Source: Pelecanus crispus (Eukaryota > Chordata > Aves > Pelecaniformes > Pelecanidae). From it: a stretch of DNA of 64,000 nucleotides. Within the stretch, counting starts at the first letter, position 1. Each line of letters opens with the position of its first letter. This document shows, piece after piece, positions 8,419-63,387 of the stretch. The stretch covers positions 82,209,721-82,273,720 of the forward strand of contig NC_134643.1 in assembly GCF_030463565.1 (NCBI RefSeq), written 5' to 3'. The translations under genes were made by a program, and so were the position numbers. Under the pieces are notes generated by a model that ran no database searches, had not been told where the DNA came from, and saw only the letters and a program-made list of their open reading frames with translations.

Positions 8419-8526
8419 CATAGAATTGCAGAATCGCTTAGGTTGGAAAAGACCTTTAAGATCATCCAGTCCAACCATTAACCTACACTACCAAGTCTAC
8501 TCTAAGCCAATCAAGGGTAGACTAGA

Positions 8527-15313: not shown

Positions 15314-15583
15314 CTGTTCCTTCAAATCAGAGTAGCAGCATTTACAATAGGACTGCTTAAGCACGGACTTCAATATGAAGTCATATCCCTCCCTTTTGTT
15401 TTTGATACTGTCACTGAAAACTTCATACATCAGCCCCCTAAACAAGCTACATCTTTCCTCTGTTGCTCAGAGCCAGTGAAAGCAAATGCAAAATTTTCTG
15501 CTTGAGACACCTAGTAGGCACAATGGCATGGCTCCAGCATTCCCTCTGCAGAACAGGATCTTTAATGTACCCTTCCTTTCCAG

Positions 15584-15781
15584 GTGGTCGGAGGCAAGGT
15601 AAAGAAACCAGGCAAGCGAGGTCGTAAACCAGCCAAAATAGACTTAAAGGCAAAGCTTGAAAGAAGTCGTCAGAGTGCAAGAGAGTGCAGAGCCAGGAAG
15701 AAGCTGAGGTACCAGTATCTGGAAGAGCTGGTTTCGAGCAGAGAGCGAGCCATATGCGCTCTTAGAGAAGAGCTTGAAATG
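15584..15781 (+). CDS. CREBL2: CREBL2 coding exon 2 (bZIP basic region and zipper)
   Basis: Encodes residues 6-71 of cAMP-responsive element-binding protein-like 2, a small nuclear bZIP protein. In mammals CREBL2 is reported to associate with CREB and to act in metabolic and adipocyte gene control. The Lys/Arg-rich part (about 10-35) leads into the basic region around SARECRARKK (about 39-48) and then a leucine-zipper-like helix to residue 71. The Asn usual in bZIP basic regions is replaced by Ser, as in mammalian CREBL2. The exon is 198 nt (66 codons), phase 0 at both ends. The acceptor is a pyrimidine tract plus CAG at 15581-15583; the donor after ATG is GTAAGA at 15782. Identity over this exon to the mammalian protein is essentially complete from memory. 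Confidence 0.97.
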
Positions 15782-16922
15782 GTAAGAAACTATCGTTTAA
15801 CCTAACCGTCAGTATTATTTGGGACCTGCCCTTGTGGACATTTGTTCTTGAAATCACTGTGACTGAGAGTGGGATTTGGCTAGCCATAAAGTATCAAAAC
15901 ATGAGTAACAGATGCACTCAGCTGTTTGTCTACTTTGTGTGTTGAATATGAACCCCATGTTGCAAGTTACCTACTGGTTCTGAACTGGAATCAAGCAAAG
16001 AAAGTGCCATTGCTTATGAGTCTGTTGTATTTGAAATGTTTGTTTTGGAAAACCTCTGACAGAGGGTGGAAAGTGATGTATTAAAATATCAAGGGGGACA
16101 TACATCCGCAGTGTGTCATTGCTTCCCACAGACCTTTGTCTCTGTTGGGGAGGTTGATTCTCCCAGGATACTCTCTGTGTAGATGGTTGTACAGCTGTCC
16201 TGTGTTCCAGCATGTGTAAGATGGGTGTCTTAGCCAAATAAGCTGCATTAACCAAAGAGAATGTTTTACCTGGAAATACAGACTCAGCTCCTCAGTGATA
16301 TTGAGATGTCATTGAAATGTCACTGGAGCTGAGGATATTGCCTTGACCTTGCATTAGGTTTGTCTGAATAGACAAGGCTAATCACCACAAGTGAATAGGG
16401 TTAGGATTGGGTGGAAAGTCAGCCAACTGACCACAGGTTTTTCGGTGTGCTTCAGGGTTTGCCAATGAAGAATTTAAGATGAGGGAATTAGGAATAAGGT
16501 AGGAATAAGGCACATGTGCTGTAACTGTGCCTTGCACAATCAGAAAGGACCTCTTAATAGTCAATCAGCCCCAAAGTCATGTGAAATATTTGTTTTTAAT
16601 AGGCCATGAACTGGAACGGTATTCTGGCATGGCAGCAGTGAGAAAATGCACAGAGTGTTCCATGTTGTTTAATAATTACAGTATTGTGTCTAGTACTGCC
16701 ACTGAGTAGCAGTTTATTGACTGAAATGGGATTTACTGAGGCCAGGTATGCAACCATGGACACGTGCTTAGCTCATTAGTGCTCTGCAGTTTTGTAAGAG
16801 GCTTCAGCCCAGTAAATTCAAACCTTAAATGAATATACCGGAAGGGAAAGATTACAGCTCTGTTTTGTCTGCTAATGTGATCCTGGCAGTTTGCTAATGC
16901 CTAATGTGTTTGCATGTTTCAG
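15782..16922 (+). other. CREBL2: CREBL2 intron 2
   Basis: A 1.14 kb phase-0 intron, GT at 15782-15783 and AG at 16921-16922. Nothing else recognised inside. Confidence 0.9.
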
Positions 16923-17070
16923 TACAAGCAGTGGTGCATGGCGATGGACCAAGGGAAAATCCCCTCTGAAATAAAAGCCCTGCTAACTGGAGAGGAGCAG
17001 GGCAAAGCACAGCAGAACTCAATCAAACTTGCCAAGGCTGGGAAGACAGAAGCAAACAGCAGCAATCCCT
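16923..17070 (+). CDS. CREBL2: CREBL2 coding exon 3
   Basis: Encodes residues 72-120, starting YKQWCMAMDQG and continuing through the KIPSEIKALLTGEEQ segment typical of CREBL2. The C-terminal part is more variable than in mammals and ends in AGKTEANSSNP. The exon is 148 nt, so one base (T at 17070) is carried into exon 4 to make the final Trp codon. The donor is GTGAGT at 17071. The whole protein is 121 residues against 120 in human. Confidence 0.96.
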
Positions 17071-29500: not shown

Positions 29501-32500
29501 GTTGGCAATGAGGAGTTGTGAGGGAGTGCAGAGAGATTTGTTTATATTGATCAAGCAAATCTTCAGCGTTTTCCATTTCTTGCTTGGATAATGCATGATC
29601 TTCCTCCTGAGTCTCTGGCACCTCTGGAGCCTTGGCAGACCAGGAGGTACCTGGCAGCTGGTGCTATCAAACCCATCCATCACTCCTCCTAAAATGATGG
29701 AAGGAGTGGAAAAGATTTCTCCTTGCTCTGGCGCCAGCTCAGCACTTGTCACTCTCCATCCATTTCATTACAGGTTTCCGAAGTCAACTCTAAGCATGGA
29801 GTAGCTGCCATTTCAACTGTCAAGCTGCCAAATATTTTCCATCTTCAGCACTGTTGTACTGTGGTGTCTACTTAAGCTCTTAGAGCAGAAGCACCAAACT
29901 GCCAGTGGCTTGGGGGTCACCTGAAGGGATGGAGCTGCCGGGGTGCCTGGGGGAGCATGGGGCAGCCTTTCCTTGGGCATCTCTCCCAGGAGCAGTGTTC
30001 ACCAAGACATGAGCCTGGTCACGGCCAATGGGATTGGATTTACAGGACTTGGGAAAAAGGGAAAGGAAGGACACAGGAGTGAGTACGATGTACAGGCATA
30101 TCATTGCTCCTTTTGCTTGTGCAGCACGGTGGAGGCTGGCTTTTCAGACCAAGGGGTCTGTCAGCTAGCTAGCTAGTGGGTTTTGTTTGATTGTTCTGGA
30201 AAATTTTTGTAACCATACTGAAAGCTGCATTGTTTGGAAGTAGAAATCAGGAAGGTTTATCAGTATAACTGCATAAATGGACAGCTGCACAGGCAAATTC
30301 CTCCAAGTTCAAACACAGCTTATGTTAGTGAGAATGTGTTTTTACCAGTATTGTTTTGGCTAAAAGAAGCTATACAAGCAGAGTCACGCTTACTCTGATA
30401 CAACTGTGACTGGGCTTTTACTGGTATGGAAAGGTGGTTTAAGAAAGCCAACCTCCAGACTTCACTCATGGTCGCAGGGCCAGTTAGGCCCGTGATTTCA
30501 GGGCAGAACTGCCAACTGTTTCAACCCGGGGACATTGTGTCCCTAGCTGTTGTGTCATGGAAGTCCTGGGCTTTTCCTGGCCAGCTTGTGTAGTTCAGCT
30601 TGCATTATACAGCTTCTGGGAGATGGGGAAACGTGGTTGAGTTCACAAGAGAGAAAGTTGCACGGAAGTCTGTGGTTTCACACTTGCTGGTGTGTTCTTT
30701 GGGTTTTGTATGTGAAATGACATCTGGCAGACTGCAGGTCTGCAACGTGGCGCTAGCGCCTTAGGGATGGACTGCCGCTCTCCTTCCCTTCCTTTTCAGC
30801 AATGGAGCAAGCCTGAAGGCAGCAGCCCCTGCACATGGTGGTCTCAGTAGCATTTTCCTTTGTGATCCGTAATGGTCTGAGACCTGGTTCTCACCTGAGG
30901 GCTGGAAGCTGGCTGTGCACAGGCAACATCCACTGGAACATCTTTGGGGTCCAACTGTACAAGGACTCACTGCTTACAGCCTCTCTGGGTACACCTCGAC
31001 AGGACAGTGACTGCTATGGCCTGTCCTGTCCGTGATGCCCAGATAATGAAGCTGTCTCATGCACTCCCATCCACGTAGACTTGAAGGAAAAAGTGTCCTC
31101 GGTCTCTCTGGACTCAGAACCTAGCAGGAGGTGGGTAATTACAGCCCTGTGGTCCTCTGCAACCTCAGGCCTCATTCTGTCCAGTCCTGTTTCTTTAATA
31201 AAACTACTAACCAAAAGAACAACTGTTGGGTTTCAGTCTTGCAACCCAACGTTAAAAATAGCATTGCAAAGTTGACCTGGCCTGCTTACCCTAGATCCGA
31301 TTTTACTGTGTCAGAGGTAATTAAGTGGCAAAGAAAAACTAAGCATATGGTGATGTTTCAGGGAGAAACAACCTGCTCAGAACATGAACCACACAGAAAA
31401 TATTGGTCTTGTCTCATTTTCAAGGTCCTCTCTCTTCCCAATTCTTGGAAAATTTTACTAATGGCTTTAGTAAGAAATATCAGATCCTTATTTAATGGGG
31501 ATTTCTGAATTTGTGAAATATATACTGGAAGTGTTCCTGCAGTCAGTAAGGGTTCTTACAACCACACTTTGTGTAGTGGAGGAGCAGGAAGGAAGATTTC
31601 TACCATACATGCAGAAATATTTCTCAACAAAGGAGTTTCCCTACCCACATTGCCGTCAGGAGAGTCTCTTGGAGGATGTCAGCTTGGGGCTCTACCACAC
31701 GTGTGCTTCTGCTCCCTGCTGACGGGAAAGGGAGTTACTCAAGCGTGCTTAGTACACCCTGTAGTACTTGCTGCTCTTGTTCTATTAACTTTCATTACTG
31801 CAGTGCTTTCAGGCCCCAGGCATGAACAGGAACCTAGCTGTGCCACATTTGTTGTGAAAGCAGAAGAAAAAGATAATCCTTCTCTGAGGAGGTTGTGGCT
31901 GAGGATGTCTCTTTCAAACAAGCGGGGAGCTTGAGATTTTGAAATAGGAGTATGTGGAGGGATAACTGACACCTACACACTGTCTTCTATTGCCTAGTTT
32001 AACACCTGGGATCAAAATATCCATAATGCTTTTAGGATGACTTGAGTGTGAAATGCCTGCTGGTAGTTTGGACTTGAAGATGCTTGGCCATGCCCTGGCT
32101 GCTACGTTAGGGTACTCCAAGCAGAGCCTGGTCTGGAGCTGGTTCTGTGCAAGAAAAGACTGAGTAGGATGAGACTCTTCAGTATGGAGGCACAGAGAGA
32201 CTGGCACAGAGAGACTGGGTGGGGATCAACTATCCACCATGTACTCACTTTGTTAGAGCTACCTGAGAAGAAAATAGAGAATAGGAAGGAAGTGCTTGAC
32301 ATCCTCAAATGAAAAGAGGACAAATTGTCCATTCTCAGGCAAAACTCTCCTGAAATCTGATGGAGCCTGAGCAAGCAGGGTGGGGCTGCTTGTCCTATCA
32401 TTGGACTTTGTCACTAGGCCCATTATGGACCTCCTCTGGATTTAGTGCATGGCACCACTTTTCGGCAGCTACCCTGGTGAAGGGTGTTAATTCTTAGCAG

Positions 32501-32951
32501 CAACTGCTAGAGGCTGGAAGGAGGTGTCAGGAGACTTCTCTCTATATTCCCTGCTTCCTACGTTCTGTCCTCAAGCACCTCCTGATGGCTACGGTCAGCG
32601 ATAGGATACTGGGATGAACGGACTTCTGGTCTAAACCCTGAGGGACTCTCCTGTTGATGTTGTAAGAAGACAAAATGGAACTAATTCCCAGGGGAGGGGT
32701 GCAGCAGCTGGGCTGGACCTTCCACAGCTCCACCTGACGGGAGAAATTGATCCAGCATAGTAAAGGGAATTCACCAACTGGACGCAAGTGCTGACATCAT
32801 TTTGTGGATAAATGGTTATCTCTGTTCTCTGAGGGCATGCTACTGTAGCTCTGGGCAATACTATGGGAATTGAGAAAATAAATGAATATCCCACATGCAG
32901 ACTCAGCCCAGTTTTTATAATGAGCTTGACAACTGCAAAAAAAAGAAACAA
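23561..32951. other. Intergenic DNA between CREBL2 and the GPR19 array
   Basis: No open frame over about 135 codons and none with a recognisable domain. It contains a GT run at 26281-26296. No tRNA, rRNA or clear transposon was recognised. Confidence 0.6.
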
Positions 32952-33056
32952 CTGGATGTTTCAGGAAGTACAGATGATTTTGGGTGGATTTATGCATTTA
33001 TACAATGTGGTGAAAATAAAGCAATATAAAAAAGCAGTGGTTTTCATTTCCCTTGT
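32952..33056 (-). repeat. Old diverged copy of GPR19 3'-end sequence
   Basis: Matches 34272-34376 (the region holding the GPR19 polyadenylation signal) at roughly 75-80% by eye. The GGTGGATTTATG and TTTATACA blocks and the TTTCATTTCCCT / TTTTATTTCCCT block line up. It is far more diverged than the main units, so it marks an earlier duplication event at this locus. Confidence 0.75.
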
Positions 33057-33071
33057 TTCCCTACACACAGA

Positions 33072-33160
33072 AAGCGTCTTGGCCTTGGCACGTGCCAAAT
33101 TTCTGAAGTTCAGGAGTCCTCTGTTGACATGACCTGCGGGTTTGCAGGGGTGCGGGGCTT
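33072..33160. repeat. Left-edge remnant of an earlier array unit
   Basis: Matches 37247-37335 in unit 1 with about four differences in some 86 bases (about 95%). At 33161 it jumps to sequence equivalent to 37829, so about 490 bp are missing relative to a full unit, with GCC microhomology at the join. It shows the array once extended further left. Confidence 0.85.
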
Positions 33161-33289
33161 GCCCTGAAATACAACTTCTGGACCTAGCAGCGTTGTCACC
33201 TCATCCTCATGATCGGAGTGGACCTACATCCCCGATGGAGCAGGCCAAATTCGCCTCCAGGGGAAATGCTGCCAGCCAGTGGACACAAG

Positions 33290-33640
33290 GTTTAGGTGCC
33301 CACCAGGTGCCTACCCCCTTGTTCAGCTGGGATGTAGGGCTGGCGCAGCTGCCCGATCAGCCGAACGCCTCCCACCACGGTCCCCTGCCCCGCAGCCTCG
33401 TGCCCCGTGCCGGTGGAGCCGAAGGTCAGCCTCTGCAGGGCCAGCGCCTGGGCGCCCGTGTCCCCCACGCACACGCCCCACTGCCCGCTTCTCACGAGCG
33501 CATCACCGTCATGGGGCGCAGGGGGGTGCAGAGGAGCCCCTGCCTCTCCCCGCTGTTCGCTGGCCGGCACAGCCAGTGCCGCTCCCCTTCCCAGCAGGAA
33601 CGAAGGCCCGTCCGGTCCCATTGGGTTGTTTTCTCACTCT
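33290..33640. other. GC-rich, CpG-dense block downstream of GPR19 copy 1
   Basis: A CpG-rich segment about 1 kb beyond the GPR19 stop, present again at 37958-38308 and 42626-42976. Long frames are open on both strands (177-194 codons plus, 109 codons minus), as expected of GC-rich DNA. Their conservation across near-identical units says nothing about coding. No domain was recognised. Confidence 0.5.
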
Positions 33641-34362
33641 GCTCTGAGAGAAGAATAGCAGCAGGAGCCATGTCCACGTGCAGCCACAGCTCCGTGCCAG
33701 CTTCTCCCCTCTGGGACGCCTATTAGGGACCTATTAACACCACATGCCCCCATGGAGGATGCCATCAGGCGAGCGTGTGACTGCGGAGCTGGTCTCCCTG
33801 CTGCCGTTTGGGAAAAAACACTACTTGCTGCCGCTGCCAGAGCCGTACCTCAGAAGAAGGGGCTCAGGCCAGGAGACACACAAAACTGAAGACGTGAGGC
33901 GTCCCTGGGTGCCTGGGAGAGCCGTGGCCCCTTTGGATCAGCAGGTCTTCTCCCAGGTGGTGCCCACCCCTGGCTTGCGGGTGGGTGCAGCAGGCTGGGT
34001 GTGGTGTAGAAGCAGCTGGAGAGGAGGCGGGGAGGGCAAGAGCAAGGGGAGGACTTTTCTCAGGCGGTTTGGACCCTGAGACCTCTGGAGAGGTGCAACG
34101 GCGAAGATGCAAAAGCCTTCAGTGTTGGCCTAATGCAGACCCTACTGCGGCTGTGGGCATTTTACCAGTGATGTCAGCGGGCTCCGAGCGATGCCACCAT
34201 TGCCCACATACGGATACTTACCCATGGGGTCTGCGCAAGAAGGAAAACAGCAGGGCAAGAGAAGTCATAAGGATGTAACGGAAGGAAGTATAGGTGGCTT
34301 GGGGTGGATTTATGGGTTTATACATGGCGGCCAAAGGACAGGGATGAAAAGAAGCGGTGGGT

Positions 34363-34368
34363 TTTATT
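34363..34368 (-). terminator. Polyadenylation signal for GPR19 copy 1
   Basis: AATAAA on the minus strand (TTTATT on plus), about 270 nt after the stop codon at 34637. It is repeated at 39031-39036 for copy 2. Confidence 0.65.
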
Positions 34369-34636
34369 TCCCTCCATCCAGAGAGTGTAAGAGCTTTTCT
34401 GTTTTGTGAAAGGGTAATGGTCGTGCTTTGGGGAGAGTGGTTCCAAAAAGCAGAAGCTAACTGAAATGAAATAGACTGGACACATCAAAATCAACGCATT
34501 TAATAAAATAAAACATCTTTCTTTCTTTCTTCCCTAAAAGTTGTCTTAAAAACATGTAAATATACATTGATTGAGAACCGAGAGAAAGCTTCTTGTTCTG
34601 GGGGCACATTGCAATTTGTCAAAGCAATGAAGCCAA

Positions 34637-35881
34637 TTAGACAAAGGTATTTGGGGGGTTGGAGTGAATGGGCCAGGCAAGCTTTTTTTCCTTTGCTTCT
34701 CTGTTAAAGGCTTCATAGATGGAGTCTTTGGTGGCAGTTTTGGCCGGAGCTGGGTTTTCTACAATCCCAACGTGATTTTTTTTGGCTATCCTGGAGCTGG
34801 TGGTGATGGTGTATGCGTTGCTTCTGTAGCACTTCATGGTGGACATGCAGAAAGTTTCTTTCATGCCTCTTCTGAAGTTTGCATTGTATATGGAGTAGAG
34901 GGTCGGCTTAGAGGCTGAAGAACTGAAAGAGATGCAGGTGATGGACAGGAAAAGCAAGGAGCTCTTCCTGTAGTCTGTTTCCTGCGGGTGCCACAACTGT
35001 ACCACGTGAAAAGGGAGCCAGGAGAGGAGAAAGAGGGCGTTTAACATCAAGAACATCTTGATGGTTTTCACTTTTGTCCTTGGGACAATATTCATTGTCC
35101 TCCTGACAGTCCTGCCGTCGGTGCCTATTCTCCAAATGTACTTGATGACCTTCTGGTAGAAGAGCATAATGAGGACGGCTGGGATCAAAAACACCACCAA
35201 GAGGTGGACGATACTGTAGACGGCTCCTTCCCACGAATCGGGGAGAAAAAAGCTGCAGTGGTCGTCGCTGTTGGAGCCATAGAAGAAGAAAGCCGGTGAT
35301 GCAAATACGGCGTCAAATAGCCAAGAGGCCAGGATCATTTTCTTGGCTTTCTCCCTTGACACTTTGAAGCTCAGGGGGTAGACGATAGTGTAGAATCGAT
35401 CCACGCATATGGAGAGGAGCACGTATATCTGGACGCCAGGGGTGAGGTACTGTACGTACCTTACCAGCTTGCACATCACATTCCCCAGCGCCCACCTGCC
35501 GTAGGCGAACTGGAGGAGCACGAAAGGCACACTTGCGACACTGATGAGGAGGTCTGCGCAAGCCATGGAGACAACAAAATAGTTGGTGGTGGATTGCGTC
35601 CTCCTGCTCCTGTGGATCACTAAGCAAACGAGGGAGTTTCCAAAGACAGAAAGCAGCCACAACGCTCCCAAAGCCACGCTGGCAGCTGCAATTTCCCCCG
35701 GCCTCAGTTGATACTGCAAGACAGTGTGGTTCCTGCTTGAGCTGGCTCCGGTGGGAGGCTCCGTCATCTCGTAGCCAGCAGCAGGGATGGAGGTTTTGGG
35801 GTCGCTCTTGTTCTGCAGCAGGAGCAATAAGGTAGGCAGAACAAAAAGACTGCTGCTGTTATCCATGCTGTGGGCAAACAT
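34637..35881 (-). CDS. GPR19: GPR19, orphan class A G-protein-coupled receptor, copy 1
   Basis: A 414-residue rhodopsin-like receptor of the plasma membrane, colinear with mammalian GPR19 (415 residues) throughout and ending in the same NPPNTFV. The natural ligand is unsettled; adropin has been proposed. N-glycosylation sequons lie at residues 8, 24 and 51. TM1 (about 64-90) has Asn82, TM2 has Asp110, and Cys137 at the start of TM3 pairs with the Cys of extracellular loop 2 (DDHCSF). The DRY motif reads Asp161-Arg162-Phe163, and NPxxY reads KPTLY, both as in human GPR19. The ATG at 35881 is chosen because the acceptor AG at 35902-35903 lies just upstream; the frame can be extended only to a GTG. 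The coding sequence is one exon. Residue 61 is Pro, as in human. Confidence 0.97.
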   Translation of the reverse strand: MFAHSMDNSSSLFVLPTLLLLLQNKSDPKTSIPAAGYEMTEPPTGASSSRNHTVLQYQLRPGEIAAASVALGALWLLSVFGNSLVCLVIHRSRRTQSTTNYFVVSMACADLLISVASVPFVLLQFAYGRWALGNVMCKLVRYVQYLTPGVQIYVLLSICVDRFYTIVYPLSFKVSREKAKKMILASWLFDAVFASPAFFFYGSNSDDHCSFFLPDSWEGAVYSIVHLLVVFLIPAVLIMLFYQKVIKYIWRIGTDGRTVRRTMNIVPRTKVKTIKMFLMLNALFLLSWLPFHVVQLWHPQETDYRKSSLLFLSITCISFSSSASKPTLYSIYNANFRRGMKETFCMSTMKCYRSNAYTITTSSRIAKKNHVGIVENPAPAKTATKDSIYEAFNREAKEKKLAWPIHSNPPNTFV

Positions 35882-35901
35882 GGCCACGTCTTTTGCTCAG
35901 G

Positions 35902-35920
35902 CTGCGTAAAGAGAGAAGAG
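35902..35920 (-). other. Splice acceptor before GPR19 copy 1 coding exon
   Basis: On the minus strand a pyrimidine tract ends in TTTACGCAG, and the exon starts at 35901, 20 nt upstream of the ATG. It shows that the mRNA has at least one upstream non-coding exon, as in mammals. The same site is intact at 40570-40588 in copy 2. Confidence 0.8.
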
Positions 35921-37004
35921 AAAAGGTTGTATTTGACAAGCATGTGTGAAAAGCCTACCTTAGGCAATGAAAGATACGTCTAAGTACTATACGTAGGCCT
36001 TAAGGCCGTAGATTTCAGAGAAATGGTCAGAAATACCCGGTGAGACTCGCTGGTACAGCAGAGGCCATTCAGTTTTGTGGCAAGTTTTATTAAAGGCCTG
36101 ACGATGTTAGGACAGGCGTTTCTGTCCTCTGCAAGATAAACGTCCCTCTCGCAGATCGAGACTGAGGTGCAGGTTCACCAATGCTGGTGGCCCGAGTCCC
36201 CAGCTGAGTGAGCGGAATGTGCTCCACTGATCCCAGAAATGAGCTGTCCTTCCCGGTGTCCGTGGAAGTTGCAAAAAACCAGACCAAGAGTGTCCCTGAT
36301 GGCCTGATTTGACATAAATCCATCAAGTGGATAGACAAAGGAGGTGTTTCTTATACTGAGAGGTGGAATGGGAAGTAATATTTTCCACGATAATAACATC
36401 TTCGTTGCTAATGATACTAGCTCCCGTCCAATCCTTAGTAACATTGGTGTTAATATCCCTAATATCCCCGAGTGTTTTTGTTTCTGGACATCATTTTGGA
36501 AGGTAAGCGAGGTTTGGATTTGAAGGCAAAAGGGAGGTCAGCCCAGTGCAAGGGCTGCACCAGGCTGGCTGGGTGCTCCTCACTGTGAATCATCCTCAGC
36601 CCTTCCACCGTGAGGAGCTGTTCATCAAGAGCTGGACCTGTACACCTTCAAGAGTCTCAACGCTTAACATCAACACTGTGCCTGCACGCCCTTGCCTCAT
36701 TAGTGATGGGCCCCATGGAGGGTAGCATTTCCCTCTGCCACCCTGAGAACAAGGTGGCACCACAACCTCCCCCCAAAACCTGCAGCAGACTTTTTTTATC
36801 CATGGCAGAGTTTTGATTTGGGAGGAAAACTCGGGGGGAGGACGTAAATGCCCTCAGGCAGCTGAGAGGTGCAGGGAGCCTTTTGATTTGCAGCAGTGGA
36901 ACCTTGGGTGGTGCCGGTTGAACTGTCGCTAGATCCGGCTGCAGGCAGCCGTTGAGGATCTCTCTGCTCTGGAGAAAACCGGGGGAGAGGGTCCATGTCC
37001 TTAC

Positions 37005-37150
37005 CTTGGTCAGGGACCTCCCAGGCAGCAAGTCTGACCCTTCACAGCTCGGCCTGTCGAGCGCAGCTGCCGAGCGCAGCCGATCCTCCAGCGACCTGAA
37101 GGCTCTGCAGCTCTGTGGGTGACCCGAGGGCAGCTGAAGGGTTGCCATGA
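37005..37150 (-). other. Candidate non-coding 5' exon of GPR19, copy 1
   Basis: A consensus donor on the minus strand (CCAAG then GTAAGG, cut between 37005 and 37004) follows a CpG-rich stretch at about 37040-37110. Splicing to the acceptor at 35901 would remove about 1.1 kb. It may be a local first exon or an internal leader exon; the 5' limit is a guess. Three of the nine differences between units (37010, 37024, 37091) fall in this short stretch. Confidence 0.35.
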
Positions 37151-39030
37151 GCAGCTGACAGCAACACACAACACGGAACCTCTGCCCGCAGCTGTGTCAC
37201 GGGAAGGCCCTTGCCCAGCTCTGGGGAGGGACCCAGCCGCCTTGTCTTGGCCTTGGCACGTGCCAAATTTCTGAAGCTCAGGAGTCCTCTGTCGACATTA
37301 CCTGTGGGTTTGCAGGGGTGCGGGGCTTGCCAGATGAGTCCAACCCCTGTTCTTTTTAAACATGAATGGCTCAGCTTACAGCCCCCCCGTCTCCTTTTTC
37401 CATTTAAGTGGGTCCCCTTCTTTGCCTGCCAGACCCTTGCAGTCCTTCCCCCTTCCTTCCCTCCCCTGTACAGACACGGCCTTGCCTGGGCACTGCTAAC
37501 GTAGCCTTCGCAGCTCTGAGCCCCGGTAGTGAACGTCAGCAAATCGGTGAGCACAAGGTAAAAAAGGAGGTTAGAACTGTGTTGGAAGGGGGTTATGGCT
37601 CTGTTAGCTGCCACACAGCTCACTACTGCAGAAGGATAGCAGTGGAACTTGGGGGCCCTCAGTGTTTACCTCTCTAAAGCAGAATAGAGCAGTCACCCGA
37701 TGTGGACTCTCACTGCTGACTACACCACCCCCCCCCCGAATGCTAACAGAATCCATAAACCGTCTACTTTGTAGATGGTGTTTTTCACCTGCCTCGACAC
37801 TCGAGTGACCTCTGTATTTCTGAGCAAGCCCTGAAATACAACTTCTGGGACCTGGAAGCGTTGTCACCTCATCCTCATGATCGGAGTGGACCTACATCCC
37901 CGATGGAGCAGGCCAAATTTGCCTCCAGGGGAAATGCTGCCAGCCAGTGGACACAAGGTTTAGGTGCCCACCAGGTGCCTACCCCCTTGTTCAGCTGGGA
38001 TGTAGGGCTGGCGCAGCTGCCCGATCAGCCGAACGCCTCCCACCACGGTCCCCTGCCCCGCAGCCTCGTGCCCCGTGCCGGTGGAGCCGAAGGTCAGCCT
38101 CTGCAGGGCCAGCGCCTGGGCGCCCGTGTCCCCCACGCACACGCCCCACTGCCCGCTTCTCACGAGCGCATCACCGTCATGGGGCGCAGGGGGGTGCAGA
38201 GGAGCCCCTGCCTCTCCCCGCTGTTCGCTGGCCGGCACAGCCAGTGCCGCTCCCCTTCCCAGCAGGAACGAAGGCCCGTCCGGTCCCATTGGGTTGTTTT
38301 CTCACTCTGCTCTGAGAGAAGAATAGCAGCAGGAGCCATGTCCACGTGCAGCCACAGCTCCGTGCCAGCTTCTCCCCTCTGGGACGCCTATTAGGGACCT
38401 ATTAACACCACATGCCCCCATGGAGGATGCCATCAGGCGAGCGTGTGACTGCGGAGCTGGTCTCCCTGCTGCCGTTTGGGAAAAAACACTACTTGCTGCC
38501 GCTGCCAGAGCCGTACCTCAGAAGAAGGGGCTCAGGCCAGGAGACACACAAAACTGAAGACGTGAGGCGTCCCTGGGTGCCTGGGAGAGCCGTGGCCCCT
38601 TTGGATCAGCAGGTCTTCTCCCAGGTGGTGCCCACCCCTGGCTTGCGGGTGGGTGCAGCAGGCTGGGTGTGGTGTAGAAGCAGCTGGAGAGGAGGCGGGG
38701 AGGGCAAGAGCAAGGGGAGGACTTTTCTCAGGCGGTTTGGACCCTGAGACCTCTGGAGAGGTGCAACGGCGAAGATGCAAAAGCCTTCAGTGTTGGCCTA
38801 ATGCAGACCCTACTGCGGCTGTGGGCATTTTACCAGTGATGTCAGCGGGCTCCGAGCGATGCCACCATTGCCCACATACGGATACTTACCCATGGGGTCT
38901 GCGCAAGAAGGAAAACAGCAGGGCAAGAGAAGTCATAAGGATGTAACGGAAGGAAGTATAGGTGGCTTGGGGTGGATTTATGGGTTTATACATGGCGGCC
39001 AAAGGACAGGGATGAAAAGAAGCGGTGGGT

Positions 39031-39036
39031 TTTATT
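39031..39036 (-). terminator. Polyadenylation signal for GPR19 copy 2
   Basis: Minus-strand AATAAA, the counterpart of the signal at 34363, about 270 nt after the copy 2 stop. Confidence 0.65.
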
Positions 39037-39304
39037 TCCCTCCATCCAGAGAGTGTAAGAGCTTTTCTGTTTTGTGAAAGGGTAATGGTCGTGCTTTGGG
39101 GAGAGTGGTTCCAAAAAGCAGAAGCTAACTGAAATGAAATAGACTGGACACATCAAAATCAATGCATTTAATAAAATAAAACATCTTTCTTTCTTTCTTC
39201 CCTAAAAGTTGTCTTAAAAACATGTAAATATACATTGATTGAGAACCGAGAGAAAGCTTCTTGTTCTGGGGGCACATTGCAATTTGTCAAAGCAATGAAG
39301 CCAA

Positions 39305-40549
39305 TTAGACAAAGGTATTTGGGGGGTTGGAGTGAATGGGCCAGGCAAGCTTTTTTTCCTTTGCTTCTCTGTTAAAGGCTTCATAGATGGAGTCTTTGGT
39401 GGCAGTTTTGGCCGGAGCTGGGTTTTCTACAATCCCAACGTGATTTTTTTTGGCTATCCTGGAGCTGGTGGTGATGGTGTATGCGTTGCTTCTGTAGCAC
39501 TTCATGGTGGACATGCAGAAAGTTTCTTTCATGCCTCTTCTGAAGTTTGCATTGTATATGGAGTAGAGGGTCGGCTTAGAGGCTGAAGAACTGAAAGAGA
39601 TGCAGGTGATGGACAGGAAAAGCAAGGAGCTCTTCCTGTAGTCTGTTTCCTGCGGGTGCCACAACTGTACCACGTGAAAAGGGAGCCAGGAGAGGAGAAA
39701 GAGGGCGTTTAACATCAAGAACATCTTGATGGTTTTCACTTTTGTCCTTGGGACAATATTCATTGTCCTCCTGACAGTCCTGCCGTCGGTGCCTATTCTC
39801 CAAATGTACTTGATGACCTTCTGGTAGAAGAGCATAATGAGGACGGCTGGGATCAAAAACACCACCAAGAGGTGGACGATACTGTAGACGGCTCCTTCCC
39901 ACGAATCGGGGAGAAAAAAGCTGCAGTGGTCGTCGCTGTTGGAGCCATAGAAGAAGAAAGCCGGTGATGCAAATACGGCGTCAAATAGCCAAGAGGCCAG
40001 GATCATTTTCTTGGCTTTCTCCCTTGACACTTTGAAGCTCAGGGGGTAGACGATAGTGTAGAATCGATCCACGCATATGGAGAGGAGCACGTATATCTGG
40101 ACGCCAGGGGTGAGGTACTGTACGTACCTTACCAGCTTGCACATCACATTCCCCAGTGCCCACCTGCCGTAGGCGAACTGGAGGAGCACGAAAGGCACAC
40201 TTGCGACACTGATGAGGAGGTCTGCGCAAGCCATGGAGACAACAAAATAGTTGGTGGTGGATTGCGTCCTCCTGCTCCTGTGGATCACTAAGCAAACAAG
40301 GGAGTTTCCAAAGACAGAAAGCAGCCACAACGCTCCCAAAGCCACGCTGGCAGCTGCAATTTCCCCCAGCCTCAGTTGATACTGCAAGACAGTGTGGTTC
40401 CTGCTTGAGCTGGCTCCGGTGGGAGGCTCCGTCATCTCGTAGCCAGCAGCAGGGATGGAGGTTTTGGGGTCGCTCTTGTTCTGCAGCAGGAGCAATAAGG
40501 TAGGCAGAACAAAAAGACTGCTGCTGTTATCCATGCTGTGGGCAAACAT
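39305..40549 (-). CDS. GPR19: GPR19, orphan class A G-protein-coupled receptor, copy 2
   Basis: A second complete 414-residue GPR19 frame, head-to-tail with copy 1 and 4668 bp away. It keeps all seven membrane segments, the TM3 and loop-2 cysteines, DRF, KPTLY and the sequons. Three coding differences from copy 1 were found: two synonymous (40157, 40298) and one that changes Pro61 to Leu (40368), just before TM1. Human GPR19 has Pro there, so Leu looks derived. The splice acceptor is intact, so this is a DNA-level duplicate and not a retrocopy. It is the copy nearer the distal CpG island at 52.5 kb, so it may be the one spliced from that promoter. An assembly duplicate or two haplotypes joined in series remain possible. 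Confidence 0.95.
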   Translation of the reverse strand: MFAHSMDNSSSLFVLPTLLLLLQNKSDPKTSIPAAGYEMTEPPTGASSSRNHTVLQYQLRLGEIAAASVALGALWLLSVFGNSLVCLVIHRSRRTQSTTNYFVVSMACADLLISVASVPFVLLQFAYGRWALGNVMCKLVRYVQYLTPGVQIYVLLSICVDRFYTIVYPLSFKVSREKAKKMILASWLFDAVFASPAFFFYGSNSDDHCSFFLPDSWEGAVYSIVHLLVVFLIPAVLIMLFYQKVIKYIWRIGTDGRTVRRTMNIVPRTKVKTIKMFLMLNALFLLSWLPFHVVQLWHPQETDYRKSSLLFLSITCISFSSSASKPTLYSIYNANFRRGMKETFCMSTMKCYRSNAYTITTSSRIAKKNHVGIVENPAPAKTATKDSIYEAFNREAKEKKLAWPIHSNPPNTFV

Positions 40550-41672
40550 GGCCACGTCTTTTGCTCAGGCTGCGTAAAGAGAGAAGAGAAAAGGTTGTAT
40601 TTGACAAGCATGTGTGAAAAGCCTACCTTAGGCAATGAAAGATACGTCTAAGTACTATACGTAGGCCTTAAGGCCGTAGATTTCAGAGAAATGGTCAGAA
40701 ATACCCGGTGAGACTCGCTGGTACAGCAGAGGCCATTCAGTTTTGTGGCAAGTTTTATTAAAGGCCTGACGATGTTAGGACAGGCGTTTCTGTCCTCTGC
40801 AAGATAAACGTCCCTCTCGCAGATCGAGACTGAGGTGCAGGTTCACCAATGCTGGTGGCCCGAGTCCCCAGCTGAGTGAGCGGAATGTGCTCCACTGATC
40901 CCAGAAATGAGCTGTCCTTCCCGGTGTCCGTGGAAGTTGCAAAAAACCAGACCAAGAGTGTCCCTGATGGCCTGATTTGACATAAATCCATCAAGTGGAT
41001 AGACAAAGGAGGTGTTTCTTATACTGAGAGGTGGAATGGGAAGTAATATTTTCCACGATAATAACATCTTCGTTGCTAATGATACTAGCTCCCGTCCAAT
41101 CCTTAGTAACATTGGTGTTAATATCCCTAATATCCCCGAGTGTTTTTGTTTCTGGACATCATTTTGGAAGGTAAGCGAGGTTTGGATTTGAAGGCAAAAG
41201 GGAGGTCAGCCCAGTGCAAGGGCTGCACCAGGCTGGCTGGGTGCTCCTCACTGTGAATCATCCTCAGCCCTTCCACCGTGAGGAGCTGTTCATCAAGAGC
41301 TGGACCTGTACACCTTCAAGAGTCTCAACGCTTAACATCAACACTGTGCCTGCACGCCCTTGCCTCATTAGTGATGGGCCCCATGGAGGGTAGCATTTCC
41401 CTCTGCCACCCTGAGAACAAGGTGGCACCACAACCTCCCCCCAAAACCTGCAGCAGACTTTTTTTATCCATGGCAGAGTTTTGATTTGGGAGGAAAACTC
41501 GGGGGGAGGACGTAAATGCCCTCAGGCAGCTGAGAGGTGCAGGGAGCCTTTTGATTTGCAGCAGTGGAACCTTGGGTGGTGCCGGTTGAACTGTCGCTAG
41601 ATCCGGCTGCAGGCAGCCGTTGAGGATCTCTCTGCTCTGGAGAAAACCGGGGGAGAGGGTCCATGTCCTTAC

Positions 41673-41818
41673 CTTGGCCAGGGACCTCCCAAGCAGCAAG
41701 TCTGACCCTTCACAGCTCGGCCTGTCGAGCGCAGCTGCCGAGCGCAGCCGATCCTCCACCGACCTGAAGGCTCTGCAGCTCTGTGGGTGACCCGAGGGCA
41801 GCTGAAGGGTTGCCATGA
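41673..41818 (-). other. Candidate non-coding 5' exon of GPR19, copy 2
   Basis: The counterpart of 37005-37150. The donor GTAAGG is intact, and the nearby exon sequence differs from copy 1 at 41678, 41692 and 41759. It would splice to the acceptor at 40569. Confidence 0.35.
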
Positions 41819-42496
41819 GCAGCTGACAGCAACACACAACACGGAACCTCTGCCCGCAGCTGTGTCACGGGAAGGCCCTTGCCCAGCTCTGGGGAGGGAC
41901 CCAGCCGCCTTGTCTTGGCCTTGGCACGTGCCAAATTTCTGAAGCTCAGGAGTCCTCTGTCGACATTACCTGTGGGTTTGCAGGGGTGCGGGGCTTGCCA
42001 GATGAGTCCAACCCCTGTTCTTTTTAAACATGAATGGCTCAGCTTACAGCCCCCCCGTCTCCTTTTTCCATTTAAGTGGGTCCCCTTCTTTGCCTGCCAG
42101 ACCCTTGCAGTCCTTCCCCCTTCCTTCCCTCCCCTGTACAGACACGGCCTTGCCTGGGCACTGCTAACGTAGCCTTCACAGCTCTGAGCCCCGGTAGTGA
42201 ACGTCAGCAAATCGGTGAGCACAAGGTAAAAAAGGAGGTTAGAACTGTGTTGGAAGGGGGTTATGGCTCTGTTAGCTGCCACACAGCTCACTACTGCAGA
42301 AGGATAGCAGTGGAACTTGGGGGCCCTCAGTGTTTACCTCTCTAAAGCAGAATAGAGCAGTCACCCGATGTGGACTCTCACTGCTGACTACACCACCCCC
42401 CCCCCGAATGCTAACAGAATCCATAAACCGTCTACTTTGTAGATGGTGTTTTTCACCTGCCTCGACACTCGAGTGACCTCTGTATTTCTGAGCAAG

Positions 42497-43349
42497 CCCT
42501 GAAATACAACTTCTGGGACCTGGAAGCGTTGTCACCTCATCCTCATGATCGGAGTGGACCTACATCCCCGATGGAGCAGGCCAAATTTGCCTCCAGGGGA
42601 AATGCTGCCAGCCAGTGGACACAAGGTTTAGGTGCCCACCAGGTGCCTACCCCCTTGTTCAGCTGGGATGTAGGGCTGGCGCAGCTGCCCGATCAGCCGA
42701 ACGCCTCCCACCACGGTCCCCTGCCCCGCAGCCTCGTGCCCCGTGCCGGTGGAGCCGAAGGTCAGCCTCTGCAGGGCCAGCGCCTGGGCGCCCGTGTCCC
42801 CCACGCACACGCCCCACTGCCCGCTTCTCACGAGCGCATCACCGTCATGGGGCGCAGGGGGGTGCAGAGGAGCCCCTGCCTCTCCCCGCTGTTCGCTGGC
42901 CGGCACAGCCAGTGCCGCTCCCCTTCCCAGCAGGAACGAAGGCCCGTCCGGTCCCATTGGGTTGTTTTCTCACTCTGCTCTGAGAGAAGAATAGCAGCAG
43001 GAGCCATGTCCACGTGCAGCCACAGCTCCGTGCCAGCTTCTCCCCTCTGGGACGCCTATTAGGGACCTATTAACACCACATGCCCCCATGGAGGATGCCA
43101 TCAGGCGAGCGTGTGACTGCGGAGCTGGTCTCCCTGCTGCCGTTTGGGAAAAAACACTACTTGCTGCCGCTGCCAGAGCCGTACCTCAGAAGAAGGGGCT
43201 CAGGCCAGGAGACACACAAAACTGAAGACGTGAGGCGTCCCTGGGTGCCTGGGAGAGCCGTGGCCCCTTTGGATCAGCAGGTCTTCTCCCAGGTGGTGCC
43301 CACCCCTGGCTTGCGGGTGGGTGCAGCAGGCTGGGTGTAGAAGCAGCTG
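42497..43349. repeat. Truncated tandem unit 3 (about 850 bp)
   Basis: Repeats the first 850 bp of the unit, including the GC-rich block, but stops before the GPR19 3' end. Apart from a 5 bp deletion near 43337, where GTGTGGTGTAG becomes GTGTAG, it looks identical to unit 2. It contains no part of GPR19. Confidence 0.93.
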
Positions 43350-43432
43350 CAAAAAACCAGACCAAGAGTGTCCTTGCTGTCCTGACTTGACAGCTCCCTG
43401 CCAGCTTGTGTCCTCTGGGATGCCTATTAGGT
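43350..43432. repeat. Right-edge mosaic of two older unit fragments
   Basis: 43350-43396 matches unit positions about 36272-36318 (the AAAAAACCAGACCAAGAGTG block) at about 90%. 43397-43432 matches about 33689-33725 (the CTGGGATGCCTATTAGG block) with several differences. Their order fits an older tandem junction with a large internal deletion. Confidence 0.8.
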
Positions 43433-51700: not shown

Positions 51701-52250
51701 TCCAGACACCCACACAGAAAAAGGGAGACAATGCTTTCAGAAAGGATGATTTCGAATTAATGACTGAAAAATACAAAAGCAGCTGTTTTAGTGCAATAAC
51801 ATGAGGAAGGAAGAAGCTGTTGGAGTGTATCTAGAGAGAAAAAAACCACAGATGGGCAGATTGATCTGCTCCATCTCAGTAAAAGTGATTTTCTGCTTTC
51901 ATCAAACTGGTCATATCAGGGGATTGTTTTAAGACAAATAAGTGGCATAATTTAAAAATAATGAATATAGGTAGACAAAACATAGATTTGTGTAGAAAAT
52001 ACAGAGAGTTATTCTGCAGTCATTCTACACACCTCTCTGCTTTCAGCAGAATCAGCTTAAAATTCAAGCCCTGCAGAGCATTAGCTCCTGAGGAATGAGT
52101 CCTCCTTGCTAAAACCCGAGGATTTTAAATGCACATAAGTAAATACACAGAAGATCATTTGCTGGAAAAGACCGTGTTGCTTGTCTCTGCAAAGAGAACT
52201 ATCCCTTTAGCCACAGCACTGTTCAGCACAGCACCTATCCATCCACATAC
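45719..52250. other. Gene-free stretch, probably GPR19 5' intron
   Basis: Short chance frames only, none over 100 codons and none with recognisable motifs. No RNA gene or transposon recognised. Confidence 0.5.
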
Positions 52251-52251
52251 C

Positions 52252-52860
52252 TGCTCCAAAGCATAATCCCAGAGGCGCCGGGCTCGTCCTTTCTCTGTGT
52301 GTAATCCCAAGCGAAGGCACCCCTGGGAAGGCGCCAGTCATCCTGGAAGCCAGGGAGTACGTTCGCGTCCGTAGCTGCCCGCGCCCGGATATTTTGTAGG
52401 TCTGGCTGAGGGCGAAGGGATGGGGTATTCGACCCCTCTTCTTTGACGGAGGAAAAAATGACGTTTCGCAGGGCTGGCTGCTGCCACCAGTCTCTTTCTG
52501 TGTCATGTGGGACGCGGATCATGTGGCTGTCCCTCCCCAGGACCCAGCCGCCCCGGGCCCTCCTTTCCCCCCCAACTCTTCTCCCTCCGGCCCCCGCCGC
52601 GGCGGGGCCCGTCAGCACCACGGACAGCGGCCGCCCCGCCGCCCGCCCCGCCGCCCCACCGGCCGGGCCCCCGGCCGCCCCCGCGGGGCAGCCCCCCGGG
52701 CCCCGCCGCAAGGCCCCGGGGGGCCAGGGGGAGGGCAGCCCCGGGGCCGGGCCGCCCCCCGGGCTGCTGCGGGGTTTGGCTGCCGGCGCTGACGTCCTGG
52801 TTGCTATGGCGAGGCGCAGCTGCTGCAGAGGATGCTTTTCCTCCGCGATGGTCGCCATGG
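52252..52860 (-). other. Candidate distal first exon of GPR19
   Basis: On the minus strand a consensus donor (GGAGCAG then GTATGT) cuts between 52252 and 52251, just downstream of the CpG island in that direction. In mammals GPR19 has non-coding 5' exons far upstream of its single coding exon and its promoter lies toward CDKN1B, which fits. A 207-codon frame is open across here, but its composition reflects GC-rich DNA and no domain is recognised, so the exon is taken as a leader. The exon start is not defined. Confidence 0.4.
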
Positions 52861-52900
52861 GACCCCGCCGCTTGGGAGAAACGGGGCGAATGAATAGGGA
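52440..52900 (-). promoter_or_regulatory. GPR19: CpG island, probable distal GPR19 promoter
   Basis: The strongest CpG island in the window, most extreme at 52540-52800. It carries a CRE-like TGACGTCC at 52790-52797, an X-box-like GTTGCTATGGCGAG at 52800-52813 and a second X-box-like GTCGCCATGGGACC at 52851-52864. No gene other than GPR19 is known here between CREBL2 and CDKN1B. A transcript on the plus strand from the same island is also possible. Confidence 0.6.
52790..52813 (-). promoter_or_regulatory. CRE-like and RFX X-box-like composite
   Basis: A CRE-like element (52790-52797) is separated by 2 bp from an X-box-like element (52800-52813). On the minus strand it reads X-box then CRE, the arrangement of an RFX plus CREB pair. 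The motifs are seen; binding is inferred. Confidence 0.5.
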
Positions 52901-52929
52901 GAAGGAGGTGGAGGGAATATTTAATTAGC

Positions 52930-55900
52930 TTCCTCTGGGAATTTGTGTTCTTTTTTTTTATTTATTTTAATTTTTTTATTCCCACGTAGGTAATGAAACT
53001 CGTTAGGAAGAAAAGAAGAATCAGACTGCTTGGTCCACCCATTTAGCACTGGGAACCTTTTTTTTTTTTTTTTAAAAATTTTACGGGGAATGGCACTGAC
53101 ACCATTTCCTTGTGTTCTCTGCCACATACACTTTATTAAGCAAAGCAGAGTAATCACAACCACCCCCAAATCTCAGTGAGCAGTCTCTCACAGAAGTCTC
53201 TCTTCTTTGTCCCACAGAAGTATGACGGGATTGATAAATTATATTACACTGTAAGTTTAAGGCAGGAATGTATCATTTGAGTCCTGACAAACTTTCTGCC
53301 TGTGAACTAAGCAAGAAAATTTTTTGGCACGTGGATTTCCGCTATTCCAGGATTTCTCATTAGTTGCATGGCTAAACTGAACCGACAAAGGCTGACTCAA
53401 AGGCTGGGTATTTTCCTTTGTTTTCCGTCATTTTTCAGTGGAGAACTCCAAGTATATTTTTATAATTTTTTGCTAGACTTCTTTAGGGCAGTGGAGAAAA
53501 AGTACAGTTGCTTATTGAAAGTTACTTTCAAGGAAGAACATGGAAATAAACAGTGTTTTTTTCCAAGTAATTACTGCTGTATAGCTTCATTTCTTGTATT
53601 TTGTATTTTTAAGCTACATTACATGCAGTGAAGCAGGTATCCTGGGAATCAAGTCTCAATTATGGAATAGCTTCTATACAAAGTATGGTTTGAATAGACT
53701 AGGACTGTTTTGCCCAGTCAGAAATGGGTAAGGTGTGGGCAGATTTGATAGAATGAATGACATGGAGAGTGTGAAGAGGGGCTGTCTGTTCATCTTCCAA
53801 CAGAAGAACTTGGAAAGGGGGCATCAGATGAAGGAACCTGGTTCAGAACATGCAGAAGGGGGGGTGGGGGGTGGGGGGGGGGGTGGGGGTTGTCCCCAAA
53901 GTGTCGGTGTAGCTCTGTGGGGCTCTTTGTTAAAGGATGTTGTGAGTACAGAATTTCACTTGAATTTGAAGGGAGATTGAACAAATGTTTGGAAAAGTGC
54001 TAAATAGACCTAAACTGTCCTAAACAAATAAGCCACATCACTTTCAGAAAATCACCTGAGCTCAGAACAGTTGGATGTTGGAAGAACTCTTGGAGAAAAT
54101 ATTGTGCTGGGGTTTAGTGAAAGGTATCTTTGTAACCAAGACAATAAATAACTTTATAAAGTTTGAGGTGGGAGTATGGTTTTCCATCTACATCTACATC
54201 AGGTAGAGGGTGGCAATGGTAATGGCAGCTTGACTATACACCAGCTTCATTTCCAGGTATTTCACACTGTGTATTTCAAACTTTGTTGATTTTTCCCAGC
54301 AAGTTTCCTGTCTTTCTGTTTTCCTTCCTGTGATTATCCCTGTCAGAGAAAGATAATCCTTACTTTTCACCTTCTTTCAAACTTGGTTTCACTGACAGCG
54401 AAGGAGGGTGAAGGAAGGTTGCTGATGTGTGTTGATGGAGTGTTGCACAGGGACATGGAAACTGCCGGACTGACTCACACAATTGTTCTTCTAATATAGG
54501 GATGCAGCCTTTGGCAGTGGTAGATGCACAGTGTTTTGGAAGAAGCCATGAAAACCTGACAGTTGTTTTGGGAGTTCACTTTCTCTTTCTTGCCACACAG
54601 ACATAAGGATCAAGGCTTGAAATATGAAGTGATATTAGTTTCTCATGAGCTTAGCTCGCACTGTCTACTCTAGTGGCTGCTGAATTAATCAAGCCTTTAT
54701 AAAATCCAGGTACATCATTTCAGTATGATAAACTGGAAGAGGAGCGAGGATGTACACCTCATTCAGCATTTCCAGAGAGCCTGAAACATCAGTTGTTCTT
54801 ATTATTTGGAGACTCATTTCTCTGAGTCTCCAAAGCGTTAGGTCCAAAGACCTAAGTGTTTTGTCAAGTTTGTCCCAAGTGACCCAGATTATCCCAAATC
54901 TGATGTCAATTGTTCCCAGAGCCACAGCTGCTGTTGATTACTTTGGAACTGCTTTTGCAGGGCAAAGAAGTTTTTGCTCCATATCGATTTGTTCTGAATT
55001 GTGCATTTGTTTGACCAAAGCTGGAAGTAAATCTCAGATTCATTTTTTGACACCTGTCACATTCCTGCTATTAAAGAATCTTCTATTCCTGTCAATGAAT
55101 CTGGCGACAAACCCCATCAGGTCCCCCAGCTGACACCTGACTGGGGACAAAAAGGCACTCTGTGCACTCAGTGCTAAAAAGTTTGCTTTAGTGAGTGCAG
55201 GGAGGCAGGAAAATAAACCGTATAAAGAGATATGAGGTAATAGGTGCAAATCAAAATACATGGCATGTTGTGCCTTCTGTGTATTGGGACCATTATGCCT
55301 GAGGTGATGCATACGGAGTCTGTGCTTGTAGGGTCAGGTAGTAGGAAAGCAGTTGTGATTTATGCACGGGGCCAAACTCTGATCCATCCTGAGCCTTTCC
55401 ATTTTGTTCAGTTGGACCAAGCTCTGGAGCTCAGTAGACAAGGGTCACTAGCCCTGGAGGGCTGAAGGCAGCTGAGGTTGCATAAGAAAAACTCAGTCTT
55501 AAATTCCTGCCTTCATTGATGACTCAGATGTGCAGTTTGGGATACATCATTTAACCTTTCTGGGCCAAATTCTGCTCAGGACCACTGGAGTAAATTCAGG
55601 GTGACTCCACTGAAGCCACATGGCAAAGCCCAACCTCCCAACCTGTTACAAGTTAAATGCGTCTCCACTGGCTGTCCTAGGGCTGAACTTGGCTCAGGGA
55701 TTTGAGAACTCAGTCCAGTGCACAAATGGCTCCATATTATCTAACAATGCTGCATTTCAGCCTGGTTTTGTTTGAGGGATGGGTGGGTGACTTGGTGTAT
55801 GCCTCAGAGAGGATCCCTCTGGGCTTTTAGATCTGATGTGAATTGTGCCCCTAAAGGGTAGCCCATCAAGGGTTGGGTTTTTTTTTTGGTTTTGTTTGTT

Positions 55901-62746: not shown

Positions 62747-63387
62747 AAGGACAGCATCCTGGCTTGTATCAGGAATGCTGTGGCCAGCAGGAGCAGGGAG
62801 GTGATTGTCCCCCTGTACTCGGCGCTGGTGAGGCCGCACCTGGAATACTGTGTCCAGTTTTGGGCCCCTCACTACAAGAAAGACATTGAGGTGCTGGAGC
62901 GTGTTCAGAGACGGGCAACGAAGCTGGTGAAGGGTCTGGAGAACAAGTCTTATGAGGAGCGGCTGAGGGAACTGGGGTTGTTTAGCCTGGAAAAGAGGAG
63001 GCTGAGGGGAGACCTTATCGCTCTCTACAGCTACCTGAAAGGAGGTTGTAGTGAGGTGGGTGTTGGTCTCTTCTCCCAAGTAGCTAGCGATAGGACAAGA
63101 GGAAATGGGCTTAAGCTGCGCCAGGGGAGGTTTAGACTGGAAATTAGGAAAAATTTCTTTACGGAAAGGGTGGTCAGGCATTGGAACAAGCTGCCCAGAG
63201 AGGTGGTGGAGTCACCATCCCTGGAGGCGTTTAAAAAACGGGTAGATGTGGCACTTCGGGATATGGTTTAGTCTGGTCTACCCTTGATTAGTCTAGAGTG
63301 GGCTTGGTAGTGTAGGTTAATGGTTGGACTGGATGATCTTAAAGGTCTTTTCCAACCTAGATGATTCTATGATTCTATGATTCTATG
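62747..63387 (+). mobile_element. CR1 3' fragment, sense, relatively intact
   Basis: The 3' 640 bp of a CR1 element. A 163-codon frame (62780-63271, opened by GTG) encodes the C-terminal part of the reverse transcriptase and its tail without a break, and lines up with the broken frames at 8527-9170. The 3' end has three perfect ATTCTATG octamers (to 63387). It is the best preserved CR1 end in the window, so probably the youngest insertion. Confidence 0.95.

Follow-up and report, generated by a model that had tools for sequence, protein, structure and literature searches.

Does Pelecanus crispus carry the coding exon of the receptor gene GPR19 twice in tandem and, if so, did recombination or the assembler make the second copy? 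The question is raised by a 64,000-bp stretch of contig NC_134643.1 (C1, 227.9 Mb; positions 82209721-82273720), here called the window, in which a first-pass annotation based on the sequence alone had noticed a head-to-tail duplication of this exon. The material comprises the assembled sequence of one genome only (1.31 Gb in 310 contigs), and the context of the array was examined in a 264-kb region around the window, in which positions above 64,000 continue the same numbering. The assembled sequence makes it rather probable that the array is a recent and real local tandem duplication produced by non-allelic homologous recombination (NAHR). When a replication-based origin is counted as well, a real duplication of either kind becomes quite probable.

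Comparison of the window with itself aligned 33161-38670 with 37828-43338 as a direct repeat of 99.78% identity over 5,511 columns, with a period of 4,668, and returned an additional third-copy match of 843 columns. Chance is excluded as the source of this repeat, and the head-to-tail duplication of the coding exon is confirmed. The array consists of about 2.18 head-to-tail copies, two full and one partial, all at the same 4,668-bp spacing. The first-pass annotation had described two units of 4,668 bp ending at 42496; there are indeed two full units, but copy 1 measures 4,667 bp, a third, partial copy at 42496-43349 had been overlooked, and the true end lies near 43349, with older, diverged fragments at both ends besides. 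Each unit contains the GPR19 coding exon, part of its upstream intron and the 3′ flank.

Over the 4,639 positions compared from 33190 onward, copies 1 and 2 differ by nine single-nucleotide variants (SNVs), at 33252, 34495, 35489, 35630, 35700, 37010, 37024, 37091 and 37510, which corresponds to 0.19% (9/4,639). This is exactly the number previously counted by eye, to which the opening 28 bp of copy 1 add three more, a 1-bp indel at 33179 and base changes at 33186 and 33188. The 264 kb yielded no other tandem pair of near-identical copies; the other pairs longer than 300 bp that were listed there number four, are 91-94% identical and lie 54-225 kb apart.

The ends of the units carry the evidence for the mechanism. 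Each unit is bounded by direct copies of an edge repeat, r (G+C content 0.64), which was found at three places in the genome, all inside the array, giving n+1 repeats for n units (three r, two exons). On the left, r1 stands apart from r2 and r3 at 33179 (the indel), 33186, 33188 and 33252 and in the adjoining sequence. At the right end, a 5-bp marker (33998-34002) is deleted in r3 alone, r2 agreeing with r1, and r3 departs from the unit after 43349. Between these markers, across 33253-33997 (~745 bp), the three repeats are identical, and this segment constitutes the crossover interval. The middle repeat is a hybrid in which the switch falls within identical sequence, and, judged from the markers, one crossover accounts for its pattern: r2 resembles r3 in its left part and r1 in its right part, and is therefore the product expected of recombination between r3 and r1 of two chromatids.

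Tandem duplication by NAHR between direct repeats is a known kind of event, whose hallmarks are the ones applied here. PMC2583991 is a review of the mechanism. We infer that an earlier layer of local duplications left direct edge modules, arranged as X-Y-r on the right and as X-r, without the 499-bp Y, on the left, and that the locus before the duplication would have held a single GPR19 exon between two such modules. Unequal crossing-over within r, with r3 of one chromatid pairing with r1 of another, would then have generated r1-exon-r2(hybrid)-exon-r3, a duplication that one or both haplotypes of the sequenced animal would carry. The reciprocal product would be an allele without the entire GPR19 coding exon.

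Table 1. Features of the GPR19 array and its surroundings (positions in the window)
Feature	Position	Strand	Length	Basis or remark
Tandem unit, copy 1	33161..37827		4,667 bp	self-comparison and copy alignment
Tandem unit, copy 2	37828..42495		4,668 bp	self-comparison and copy alignment
Copy 3, partial = edge repeat r3	42496..43349		854 bp	unit 1-859 minus 5 bp
Edge repeat r1 (left)	33161..34018		858 bp	genome search, copy alignment
Edge repeat r2 (middle)	37828..38686		859 bp	hybrid: r3 markers left, r1 markers right
Old relic, left outer	32890..33053	.		resembles 34203-34373, GPR19 3′ flank with poly(A) signal
Old relic X0	33076..33163	.		84/88 identical to 37244-37331 (unit 4085-4172; also 41912-41999)
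Old relic, right	43345..43392	.		89.6% identity to unit 3108-3155
Old relic, right outer	43390..43431	.		88.1% identity to unit 527-568
GPR19-like CDS, copy 1	34637..35881	-		414 aa + stop, Pro61
GPR19-like CDS, copy 2	39305..40549	-		414 aa + stop, Leu61
Poly(A) signals, copy 1	34363..34504	-		AATAAA 34363-34368, ATTAAA 34499-34504
Poly(A) signals, copy 2	39031..39172	-		same two signals as copy 1
3′ splice-site AG, copy 1	35902..35903	-		20 nt ahead of ATG, read from sequence
CpG island, candidate promoter / first-exon region of GPR19	52100..53150			upstream on GPR19 strand; inferred

The earlier layer is visible as relics adjoining the array on both sides. The outer left relic is identical to its counterpart in 116 of 177 columns (65.5%, or 73.4% of the 158 ungapped columns), with a local score of 101 against 46 for the best of 200 shuffles, and its core (32963-33053) shows 74.7% identity to unit 1124-1214. 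The neighbouring X0 meets copy 1 over a 3-bp GCC, at a point where the 499-bp Y (37332-37830) is missing. Y stands ahead of r2 and r3, is absent ahead of r1 and has GCC at both bounds; the difference reflects either a deletion on the left or an insertion on the right. Overall, the flank scraps are 66-95% identical to the unit. For 59 segments of 4,668 bp drawn at random from the 264-kb region, scraps on both sides (within 500 bp) occurred in no case, and on a single side once. Relic searches of the flanks and the 264 kb returned no match to the reversed unit, and a tblastn search of the 264 kb (E up to 1, array masked) no relic of the GPR19 reading frame outside the array. Two other unit matches were doubtful and were set aside, one at 29550-29610 (71%, E 0.009), which did not appear in a larger search at E up to 0.05, and one at 101056-101171 on the minus strand (63%, E 0.004). 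In their arrangement, the scraps would fit decayed older tandem copies; because they are unequally diverged, other histories are possible as well.

With the zebra-finch rate given in PMC12047795 (2.0e-9 per bp per year), a difference of 0.19% translates into an age of at most about 0.5 million years, and the true age would be younger still if allelic differences were already present at the birth of the duplication. Eight of the nine SNVs are transitions, and six of the nine lie at CpG sites (33252, 34495, 35489, 35630, 35700 and 37510). At every one of these six, copy 1 retains the CpG that copy 2 has lost (158 CpG in copy 1 versus 152 in copy 2).

The first-pass annotation had offered a very recent duplication or copy-number polymorphism on the one hand and a false assembly duplication on the other. 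This was the right pair of options, and the sequence favours a real duplication. An assembly artefact is unlikely in our judgement, yet it is the strongest competitor. Each haplotype would hold a single exon, and the assembler would have linked the haplotypes through the ~745-bp identical part of r, passing the exon twice. According to PMC9516828, false duplications make up 2.3, 0.5 and 0.3% of three Vertebrate Genomes Project assemblies, 61-92% of which lie on one and the same scaffold, and such duplications are recognised by halved read depth, by gaps separating the copies, by discordant linked reads and by one-copy k-mers. Gaps are absent here, as there is no N between or near the copies, nor anywhere across the 264 kb around the array. 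No further copy or stray haplotig was found elsewhere in the genome, the only two matches to the GPR19 coding sequence (CDS) both lying in the array. In addition, the r-exon-r block spans only ~5.5 kb, a size at which a long-read assembler is seldom misled, if a long-read origin of the assembly may be read from its contiguity. Typical long reads exceed ~5.5 kb. The older relics adjoining the edges and the hybrid r2 with its single switch interval also point towards a real array.

Several observations nevertheless weigh against a real duplication made by NAHR. The 0.19% difference is also possible between two alleles of one bird, lying inside ordinary heterozygosity, for which ~0.4% is given for the collared flycatcher (PMC12047795), and a misjoin of two haplotypes at r by the assembler would imitate NAHR and yield the identical hybrid. 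Simple equal ageing of the copies does not predict the one-sided loss of CpG (6/6; sign test by hand, two-sided p = 0.03), which may be a chance effect or stem from unequal methylation or from the greater age of one haplotype. Finally, the outer left relic keeps 65-75% identity and X0 95%, and so uneven a divergence means that the older layer was not one simple event.

A replication-based origin, by template switching or rolling-circle-like re-replication, appears very improbable. It would create 2.18 copies in one event with no prior flanking repeats, and agrees with the presence of 2.18 copies with one repeated junction and with the exact overlaps at three older joints, which measure 3, 2 and 3 bp, though overlaps of this length are common by chance. 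The edge relics, however, are ~5-35% diverged, and the repeats therefore predate the duplication; moreover, r1 and r3 differ at both ends, with r2 as a hybrid of one switch, as predicted by NAHR but not by one-event copying. A dispersed repeat or mobile element as the cause was rejected, as r occurs only in the array, the left relic query matched only the GPR19 locus (5/5 matches, self included), and the right relic query gave 19 genome matches, of which 3 are the GPR19 locus and the 16 others align only to an AT-rich tandem stretch (query 104-185), while its relic part (query 11-58) matches only the GPR19 locus.

If recombination within r is taken as the origin, a bolder and rather doubtful extension can be proposed, namely that the GPR19 exon sits in a long-lived recombination trap. 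The relics would then record repeated local duplication and loss, NAHR would yield double-exon as well as exon-less alleles, and both presence/absence and copy-number polymorphism might be segregating in a wild bird.

Both copies retain an open frame and share an identical 3′ splice site and the same two poly(A) signals, in agreement with the earlier statement that each unit has an intact frame, splice acceptor and polyadenylation signal. The product is a rhodopsin-family (class-A) seven-helix receptor, copy 1 matching Pfam 7tm_1 with E 3.5e-46 and copy 2 being one residue apart; the best-matching solved chains are other peptide receptors, such as NPFF receptor 2. For human GPR19 and for the neighbouring genes (DUSP16, CREBL2, CDKN1B), hand-entered sequences served as queries. 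Against this human protein the two copies are 76.3% and 76.1% identical over residues 2-415. The CDS contains three of the nine SNVs; those in codons 84 and 131 are synonymous, and the third changes codon 61 from Pro in copy 1 to Leu in copy 2. Because the hand-entered human protein has Pro at the matching place (alignment by eye), Leu61 is probably the derived state.

The surroundings are those expected of GPR19. CREBL2 (15581-17066) and the CDKN1B domain (161918, beyond the window) are on the plus strand, with GPR19 between them on the opposite strand, and DUSP16 lies on the same side of GPR19 as CREBL2. We take the order DUSP16-CREBL2-GPR19-CDKN1B to be the usual neighbourhood of the gene.

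The wording of the first-pass annotation, a receptor gene duplication, holds for the coding exon, which is doubled; we found no evidence for a doubling of the whole gene. CpG islands were called on base composition only, and at the thresholds used the only one in the array is 33350-33850 (in r1); no island adjoining the exon within the unit was detected. The nearest island upstream of the gene, the candidate listed in Table 1, lies outside the array, and with a unit consisting of the coding exon and its flanks, whole-gene duplication is unsupported. Leftward transcription would meet copy 2 first, and this copy would be the exon usually spliced to upstream non-coding exons; its position nearer to the upstream side and the poly(A) signals it carries should give it the bulk of the transcripts. 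To be used, copy 1 would depend on read-through together with skipping, or on a separate promoter, and in view of the missing CpG island next to the exon it is probably a little-used alternative last exon. The effect of the duplication is thus likely to be small, with two near-identical alternative last exons and Leu61 in the one that is probably used.

Two other features of the region may be recorded. An open CDKN1-type frame lies outside the window between GPR19 and CDKN1B, on the strand opposite to CDKN1B (L019:~3325-2920, minus strand; about +97.3 kb). It matches Pfam CDI over its first 120 aa (E 3.3e-19) and the hand-entered CDKN1B domain at 45%, and its tail, KRRQTSL, resembles a p21-type PCNA-binding motif. 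Within the window, 8418-9046 and 62751-63380 form an inverted pair (630 bp, 91% identity); the 264-kb region contains more copies of this kind, and the pair is probably a dispersed repeat.

GPR19 is a conserved orphan receptor. It is described as a class-A receptor reported to modulate the free-running circadian period (PMC8599615, as cited in PMC10746142) and as a pseudogene in a hadal fish (PMC10746142); in the accessible parts of the open-access literature, PMC6504862 and PMC10746142 among them, no earlier report of a GPR19 duplication was found. If the array is real, the locus would supply a natural series of dosage or null alleles for a receptor with a circadian-clock connection, and a clear case of exon-sized NAHR in a bird. 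An assembly error, on the other hand, would be a gapless false duplication, invisible to N-based screens.

Compared with known GPR19, the pelican locus agrees in its 76% identity to the hand-entered human protein (residues 2-415) and, by queries of the same kind, in its neighbours, but has two intact coding exons instead of one, and P61L in copy 2. With the false heterotype duplications described in PMC9516828 it shares adjacent, near-identical copies on one chromosome with allele-like divergence; it differs from them in having no gap, a period that continues into a third copy, and relics at its edges. Relative to NAHR systems, the repeats (~859 bp) and the segment (4.7 kb) are short and the array is known from one genome, while the architecture is the same: a segment between direct repeats, three repeats around two segments, and a single-switch hybrid in the middle.

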